Assembly (NCBI GenBank): GCA_028873815.1
Contig: JAPPNN010000021.1
Location: 62,001 to 126,000, forward strand
DNA from: Gemmatimonadota bacterium
Lineage (GTDB): Bacteria > Gemmatimonadota > Gemmatimonadetes > Longimicrobiales > Gaopeijiaceae
DNA: 64,000 nucleotides
Reading direction: 5' to 3'
The notes beneath the pieces are model-generated. The model was not told the origin of the DNA. It saw only the letters and a program-made list of their open reading frames with translations, and did no database searches. Position numbers and translations under genes: made by a program. Shown piece after piece: positions 59,580 through 60,237 of this stretch; the stretch's first letter is position 1; every line of letters begins with the position of its first letter.

Positions 59580-59618
59580 TTGACATGCATGGTATACTAT
59601 ATATCGTATATTGACGAT
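59580..59618 (+). promoter_or_regulatory. promoter/operator region of the ArsR-type gene
   Basis: TTGACA (59580-59585) is followed by an AT-rich block, the only such stretch for several kilobases. Two dyads are present: TATAC (59593-59597) with GTATA (59606-59610), and ATCGT (59603-59607) with ACGAT (59614-59618). The -10 is ambiguous within this block. Position 37-75 bases before the ATG suits autorepression by the ArsR-type protein. Confidence 0.6.
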
Positions 59619-59654
59619 AAACGATTTCACCACTCAAACGGGAACCGGAACGCC

Positions 59655-59993
59655 ATGGGAGTCGCCAGAATACGCGAGACCGGCTTTGTGGCCGACGTCG
59701 TTCGGACCGCGCGTTGGGGGAGGGCGCTCGCGCACCCCGCCCGCGTGACGATTCTGACATTGCTTGCCGAGCGGCAAACGTGCGTGTGCGGTGAGATCGT
59801 GGACGACCTCCCCCTCGCGCAGTCAACCGTCTCCCAGCATCTGCGGGTGCTTCGGGAGGAAGGTCTGATCACCGGCGAGGTGGATGGAACGCGCTCCTGC
59901 TATTGCATCGACGCGGAACGGGTCCGCGCGATGATGGCGGACCTCAACCGGTTCGGCACCACCCTGGAGCGGAAGGCCGCCTGTGGCTGCTGA
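59655..59993 (+). CDS. ArsR/SmtB-family metal-responsive repressor
   Basis: Protein of 112 residues. Winged helix-turn-helix with ALAHPARVTILTLLAERQ, then TCVCGEIVDDLPLAQSTVSQHLRVLREEGLI, and GTRSCYCID. The CVCGEI segment at the start of the metal-binding helix matches the alpha-3 CxC site of ArsR/CadC sensors, and extra Cys pairs (CYC; terminal CGC) could complete a thiolate metal site. It should release DNA on binding arsenite, cadmium or a similar ion. ATG 59655 is used; the frame is open for 25 codons upstream, through the promoter. A Cys-rich micropeptide gene follows after 51 bases. Confidence 0.87.
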   Translation: MGVARIRETGFVADVVRTARWGRALAHPARVTILTLLAERQTCVCGEIVDDLPLAQSTVSQHLRVLREEGLITGEVDGTRSCYCIDAERVRAMMADLNRFGTTLERKAACGC

Positions 59994-60044
59994 CCAGATC
60001 AATGCAGGACAAACAACACGTCAACCCAAACCATGGAGGACACG

Positions 60045-60104
60045 ATGACAAACGTCTGCGGATGTTGCTGCGGTGGCGGTTGTTGCGGCGGCCCCTGCTG
60101 CTGA
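60045..60104 (+). CDS. 19-residue micropeptide with eight cysteines, ArsR-linked
   Basis: The frame reads MTNVCGCCCGGGCCGGPCC and then TGA: eight cysteines, six glycines and no other reactive side chain. A strong Shine-Dalgarno (GGAGGA) lies four bases before the ATG. It is 51 bases downstream of the ArsR-type gene, on the same strand, inside the 244-base stretch before the Tat epimerase gene. Cysteine pairs and triples fit a metal-thiolate ligand like a minimal metallothionein. It is too short for most gene finders. No homologue can be checked here; metal binding is inference from composition and from the regulator. Confidence 0.6.
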   Translation: MTNVCGCCCGGGCCGGPCC

Positions 60105-60124
60105 GCGACTTCGGCGAGCCCCGA

Positions 60125-60155
60125 GGGGGTCGGTGAGGAGGATCGGCCGACCTCC
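60125..60155 (+). terminator. GC-rich hairpin after the micropeptide
   Basis: GGGGGTCGG (60125-60133) and CCGACCTCC (60147-60155) pair with one mismatch. It lies 20 bases after the micropeptide stop and would separate the ArsR unit from the downstream epimerase gene. No T run follows, so this is tentative. Confidence 0.4.
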
Positions 60156-60237
60156 CGGGGCTTGCGACAACCCCATTCCGGCCCCGATATCTGATTAACA
60201 GTTCCAAACCCGGAAACGTGCAATCAGGGAATCCGAC

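Follow-up and report, generated by a model that had tools for sequence, protein, structure and literature searches.

What function might be served by a 60-base gene that encodes eight cysteines among 19 residues and that lies directly behind a gene for an ArsR-family repressor? This question is raised by a locus in the window, which is the 64-kb stretch of DNA analyzed here (G000:C46:62001-126000). An initial annotation of this DNA had described the components of the locus, and its description proved accurate. The frame was re-derived with exactly the same coordinates and cysteine count, and the GGAGGA ribosome site, the 51-base gap between the ArsR gene and the frame, the CVC site in the repressor, and a hairpin directly after the stop codon are all present (Table 1). 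Dyads had also been reported at the arsR promoter, and a dyad is present in this region. We think it probable that the locus is a two-gene arsenic-responsive operon, wherein ArsR controls a gene-encoded thiol chelator of arsenite or antimonite that resembles a minimal metallothionein.

Table 1. Positions of the features discussed in the text, in window coordinates unless a locus is named
Feature	Position	Strand	Basis or context
Sigma-70-like promoter, TTGACA, 16-base spacer, TATCGT	59580..59607	+	10/12 consensus matches
Putative ArsR operator TATCGTATATTGACGATAAACGAT	59602..59625	+	Pattern search of cassette genomes
ArsR-family repressor, 112 aa, Cys at C43, C45, C82, C84, C110, C112	59655..59993	+	PF01022, NF033788
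Shine-Dalgarno GGAGGA	60035..60040	+	GGAGG 5′ of ATG in 14/14 micropeptide genomes
Micropeptide MTNVCGCCCGGGCCGGPCC, 19 aa, 8 Cys	60045..60104	+	Open frame and conservation
GC-rich hairpin directly 3′ of stop, no T-run	60114..60165	+	Consensus fold of relatives
CC-rich Bacteroidota peptide	L059:5219-5311	+	Behind arsM
CC-rich Bacteroidota peptide	L083:5231-5311	+	Behind arsM
CC-rich Bacteroidota peptide	L111:5238-5333	+	Behind arsM
CC-rich Bacteroidota peptide	L084:4342-4434	+	Directly behind arsR

Both strands of the window were scanned for frames of 15 to 30 codons with at least six cysteines, with ATG, GTG, or TTG accepted as starts and no ribosome site demanded. The micropeptide frame was the sole result, along with a nested in-frame extension that begins at an ATG at 60033. 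We rejected this upstream start because four relatives (L003, L005, L006, and L012) lack the codon. The initial annotation had further presented the peptide as a candidate minimal metallothionein. Its composition agrees with this proposal, given that the eight cysteines are arranged in CC and CxC groups, but membership in a known family finds no backing from model searches. The calculated average mass of the peptide is 1728 Da, or 1597 Da once Met is removed. Specifically, the 23-residue in-frame extension matched no Pfam family at E values up to 1 and no NCBIfam model at E values up to 0.1, where queries this short can be missed. When three micropeptides were used as tblastn queries against plasmids, two gave no match and the third gave two weak Streptomyces matches (E 9).

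The nearest named relatives of the source organism are the Gemmatimonadetes MAGs SB0672, SB0664, and SB0661. Six of the 23 genomes in the genus (G000 included) carry the ArsR, and the distribution of the cassette is patchy, with 16 of the 23 lacking it. According to the initial annotation, its reading would be refuted if relatives bearing this ArsR had a broken or absent frame without conserved cysteines, and conservation of the Shine-Dalgarno site was a further point to be checked. In all five other genus genomes with the ArsR (L003-L007; ArsR 83-93% identical), the frame, the ribosome site, and eight or more cysteines are kept. The substitutions N3S, G10D, G15C, and P17A occur among them, with no cysteine lost. 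The pair is likewise retained in G252, which belongs to another genus of the same family (L012; ArsR 83% identical), and diverged versions are found behind other ArsRs, as described below. In G001 (L039), the C-terminal end of ArsR is the only part detectable, and the frame remains open after an in-frame 3-base deletion that leaves it one codon and one cysteine shorter, again with its ribosome site. When 121 genomes of the family were searched at the DNA level, the cassette DNA turned up in these eight genomes, G000 among them. Another 18 gave weak matches of short length, one of which (L153, from G306) led to a diverged micropeptide.

It might be argued that the open reading frame is a product of chance, or a relic, in GC-rich DNA beside a conserved gene. 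Within the genus, substitutions are few and DNA identity is high, and arsR is incomplete in two of the genomes with a micropeptide, all of which would fit this explanation. Only seven of 60 sites vary in the frame versus 38 of 125 in the spacer and hairpin together (p 0.006), but the difference is not clear when the spacer is considered alone (p 0.10). Four of the seven variable sites change an amino acid, never a cysteine, and these are too few for a selection test. However, the ribosome site and the cysteines are also conserved between genera in which the ArsRs agree at only about half of their residues. This constancy of the cysteines across genera is the main support for our reading of the locus.

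The more distant examples were found by using the ArsR of G398 as a query and by rescanning loci. They include the micropeptides MPCRSSGCCGDCGCGDGGCC in G398 and MTRNDCSCCDNGCCGGGCC in G405, both located behind an ArsR, and MPNGTSGCCDECGCGGGCC in G275 (L168), whose ArsR lacks its N-terminal half. The micropeptide MPDTTIAACCGCCGSGCCGDGCC in G306 lies at the edge of a contig, and the Cys-rich tail encoded before it resembles the end of an ArsR. Two more were found when 15 weaker ArsRs from the phylum were examined, namely MNRSCCNGPEDTDQCCPSGGCC in G072 (L234, 843-910, minus strand) and MGDDCCIGTICIETGCC in G376 (L226, 803-856, minus strand). Both of these genomes belong to a second family in the class, and their micropeptides follow a second kind of ArsR. 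The diverged peptides comprise 17-23 residues with 5-8 cysteines, and the total is now 14 genomes from seven genera and two families. Because arsR is incomplete in G001 and G275, regulation in these two genomes is lost or different.

We also evaluated how exclusive such frames are by requiring an ATG start, 15-30 amino acids, at least six cysteines, and GGAGG, AGGAG, or GAGGA as a ribosome site. Across 222 loci (1,040,560 bases, overlapping copies included), 11 hits remained after removal of duplicates. Eight are behind a full ArsR, two are behind an incomplete ArsR (G001 and G275), and one is at the contig edge in G306, while the same loci in reverse yielded no hits. Over 267 loci (1,172,820 bases, overlapping copies included), the test returned 10 distinct peptides, all at those ArsR loci or that of G072. 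This exclusivity over 1.17 Mb, together with the empty reversed control, also argues against a chance or relic origin, which we regard as highly improbable. When 80 named loci were scanned with relaxed limits (at least five cysteines, 18%), many Cys-rich frames without a ribosome site appeared, which we take to be chance occurrences. A Cys-rich frame in L093 was rejected because it is the end of the ArsM-like frame of that locus, and frames in L060, L080, L097, and L107 were left uncounted because they might be protein tails.

Which ion would such an operon sense? The repressor matches the ArsR/SmtB helix-turn-helix family PF01022 (55.8 bits, cut-off 22) and the metalloregulator model NF033788 HTH_metalloreg (76.9 bits, cut-off 55). 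C43 and C84 are invariant in 10 aligned ArsRs, and C82 is present in nine of the 10. The predicted promoter is a consensus match alone, with one found where 0.2 were expected. The operator pattern TATCGTATATTGMCGATAAACGAT, allowing up to three mismatches, occurs once per genome and always at the cassette in eight of nine cassette genomes; there is no match in G001, and the backward pattern gave none. A related element (up to two mismatches) lies 5′ of 13 of 17 arsR genes linked to acr3, arsA, or arsD, with no occurrence in 3400 shuffles or 3000 random stretches. This element was not found 5′ of the 15 weaker ArsRs, including those of G072 and G376, nor in L168. Both its ars-type operator and the arsenic genes that adjoin its close relatives (see below) place this repressor with ArsRs of the As(III)-responsive kind.

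The genes that otherwise occupy the position behind arsR are informative. Among 36 distinct ArsR loci, 10 have a micropeptide and no acr3, arsA, or arsD match within the locus, nine have neither, and the remaining 17 have the reverse arrangement, such that one of these arsenic genes adjoins 17 of the 26 related ArsRs without a micropeptide. The Fisher test on these loci gives p 4e-4, treating related loci as independent even though the ten micropeptide ArsRs represent about four lineages, and in four of the micropeptide loci (L003, L005, L006, and L167) only 178-453 bases are available 3′ of arsR. The test omits the 15 weaker ArsRs (two with a micropeptide, and an Acr3 match in one) as well as 30 ArsRs of the G072-family set, one of which, that of G072, has a micropeptide. 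For 26 of 29 other G072-family ArsRs examined, an ArsM-like gene is found near behind ArsR (matches with fetched loci). In G072 a micropeptide takes its place, and a stem with a T-run comes next. In L008 and L169, an ArsD-type arsenic chaperone is at the effector position. The G376 locus (L226) has the order arsR, micropeptide, ArsN2 (147.3 bits, cut-off 125), and an arsenate-reductase-like frame that was named by eye because the scanned piece had no NCBIfam match.

References for Acr3, ArsD, ArsA, ArsM, ArsN2, and ArsC found no match in the 64-kb window or in the 6-10 kb loci L039 and L041-L044. At the genome level, none of 26 genomes, nine of the 14 with a micropeptide among them, has an Acr3 above cut-off, with four weak hits below it. 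Searches of 28 genomes, covering all of the 14 except G072 and G376, located ArsB in one (G398) and an ArsM-like protein elsewhere in 24, whether or not a cassette is present.

A conventional alternative is that the same operon senses and binds Cd/Pb, Zn, or Cu, and that the peptide is a metal-buffering mini-metallothionein. The repressor does match the Cd/Pb-sensor model CmtR, albeit weakly (49 bits, cut-off 150), and ArsR/SmtB repressors of metallothioneins can sense several divalent ions, as described for AzuR (PMC8790569). However, 17 of the 26 closest scored relatives without a micropeptide adjoin acr3, arsA, or arsD, and these have the operator of this ArsR in common with it. Furthermore, micropeptides are located beside arsN2 in G376 and beside arsM or arsC-like genes in Bacteroidota. 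We consider one of these ions unlikely. Judging from the operator, the relatives of this ArsR, and the genes that share operons with related micropeptides, the sensed ion is probably arsenite or antimonite.

The hairpin that follows the frame has a consensus fold common to six relatives (-39.4 kcal/mol), with a two-sided change in one of 20 pairs, and single-sequence folding of 60030-60200 gives a z score of -3.46. It is a possible transcript end or stabilizer. Two sub-threshold Rfam hits were dismissed as chance. An epimerase gene lies 134 bases downstream, beyond the hairpin. A second epimerase copy, 44-50% identical, is found upstream of the oxidoreductase gene in all six loci L039-L044.

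A very short Cys-rich frame with a strong hairpin immediately after it and a gene not far beyond could also be a leader peptide, in which ribosomes that stall during cysteine shortage alter the hairpin and thereby control the downstream gene. Yet in G017, the flanking oxidoreductase and epimerase genes are present and the cassette is absent. Moreover, the gene 3′ of the micropeptide differs by genus, being the epimerase, a carboxylesterase-like frame (L166), ArsN2 (L226), or a reverse-strand frame (L168), and where identified it is never related to cysteine or sulfur, so there is no constant Cys-related gene of the kind that a leader would serve. The stem with a T-run 3′ of the G072 frame likewise speaks against this explanation. 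Because the upstream partner, arsR, is constant and the downstream gene is variable, the arrangement is unlike an attenuator, and we judge a leader function to be very unlikely.

We find it extremely unlikely that the frame is a RiPP precursor or the end of a selenoprotein read through TGA. The peptide is indeed rich in Cys and Gly, and TGA is the stop codon in 12 of the 14 micropeptide loci. However, the other two loci (L167 and L234) use TAG, and the frame after the stop codon shifts between relatives. In addition, no maturation enzyme is evident among six neighboring window proteins scanned, and the neighbors change between genera.

For the arsenic-responsive operon that we favor, the following sequence of events can be envisioned. 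ArsR would sit on the operator over its own promoter until its cysteines bind arsenite or antimonite, whereupon it would be released and arsR would be co-transcribed with the micropeptide frame up to the hairpin. As(III) is coordinated by three sulfurs. The micropeptides offer five to nine thiols, grouped as CC and CxC along a chain rich in Gly, and this layout would be well matched to such coordination. We infer that the peptide is produced and binds metal; its thiolates would hold the metalloid, such that the cytosol is buffered, the cell is protected, and the repressor resets. In related arsR operons, the position of the micropeptide is taken by a pump, a pump ATPase, an arsenic chaperone, or a methyltransferase. 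If arsenite is indeed bound, then a 60-base gene could by itself be the complete effector in a response to a metalloid. Such a peptide would provide a metallothionein of minimal size that can be tested directly and a short arsenic-binding tag of natural origin, and ars operons would merit a new scan for micropeptides that annotation passes over.

Metallothioneins under ArsR/SmtB repressors are familiar from SmtB-SmtA, and the proposed likeness to the present system is that a small Cys-rich product is encoded by a gene that the repressor targets through an inverted repeat. Metallothioneins of the SmtA/NmtA type are about 50 residues long and use both His and Cys to bind divalent ions. In contrast, the micropeptides in this group have 17-23 residues and are encoded directly behind arsR, with an ars-type ArsR and operator, and the window's peptide lacks His. 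Phytochelatins, which are also very short and carry their thiols in repeats, sequester As(III) and Cd(II), but they are made enzymatically from glutathione, whereas the micropeptide is gene-encoded under ArsR. The candidate also resembles ArsD-type chaperones in its position behind arsR and in its proposed Cys-based handling of arsenic, although ArsD has about 100 residues and its own fold, and we see no sequence relation between the two. Mycobacterial polycysteine short ORFs are reportedly leaderless attenuators of operonic genes (Canestrari 2020). They too consist of a very short frame that is rich in Cys and close to a hairpin, but the present frame has a ribosome site and lies behind arsR. 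In the AzuR-NmtA system, azuR is far from nmtA (PMC8790569). Among the literature matches listed, no title or abstract opening mentions an ArsR-linked Cys micropeptide, which does not imply absence from print.

Outside the genus, four of 77 named loci, all from Bacteroidota, carry CC-rich peptides of 26-31 residues within ars operons. The four share the pattern KDP..CC..(G)S.CC...GCC and none has a ribosome-site match; we accepted them because of this shared pattern and their place in the operon. ArsM scores above cut-off in L059, L083, and L111, and the proteins encoded next in L111 and L084 are ArsC-like, with matches to arsenate reductase models below cut-off. The ArsM of L111 ends in the Cys-rich tail KDDRNCCEPGSGCC, which is very like the micropeptide KDPTCCEPGSICC...GCC that its own operon encodes. 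ArsM tails of this kind likewise place CC groups at a protein end, but a tail is part of an enzyme and a micropeptide is free-standing. The Bacteroidota peptides resemble those of Gemmatimonadota, a likeness that need not reflect homology.

More tentatively, these peptides might belong to a scattered class of arsenic chelators, gene-encoded and about 17-31 residues long, that arose more than once and can replace a pump or methyltransferase as the ars effector. The origins would then lie in Gemmatimonadota ArsR operons and in Bacteroidota arsM/arsC operons, in the latter perhaps as freed ArsM tails. Their small size would have let such micropeptides escape gene callers and thus notice. If this class is real, it would be a genetically encoded counterpart of phytochelatins and would rank among the smallest resistance determinants. 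The genus of the window is one that, judging from the names of its MAGs, we take to be sponge-dwelling. Bacteria are responsible for the accumulation of arsenic in some marine sponges (PMC5333131), and therefore the cassette could matter to symbionts.

As a separate observation, many ArsRs from L166, L167, L234, and L239-L257 have C-terminal tails rich in Cys, with CDCSADSNCCSP, GCCDAGCC, and SCRAACC as examples.
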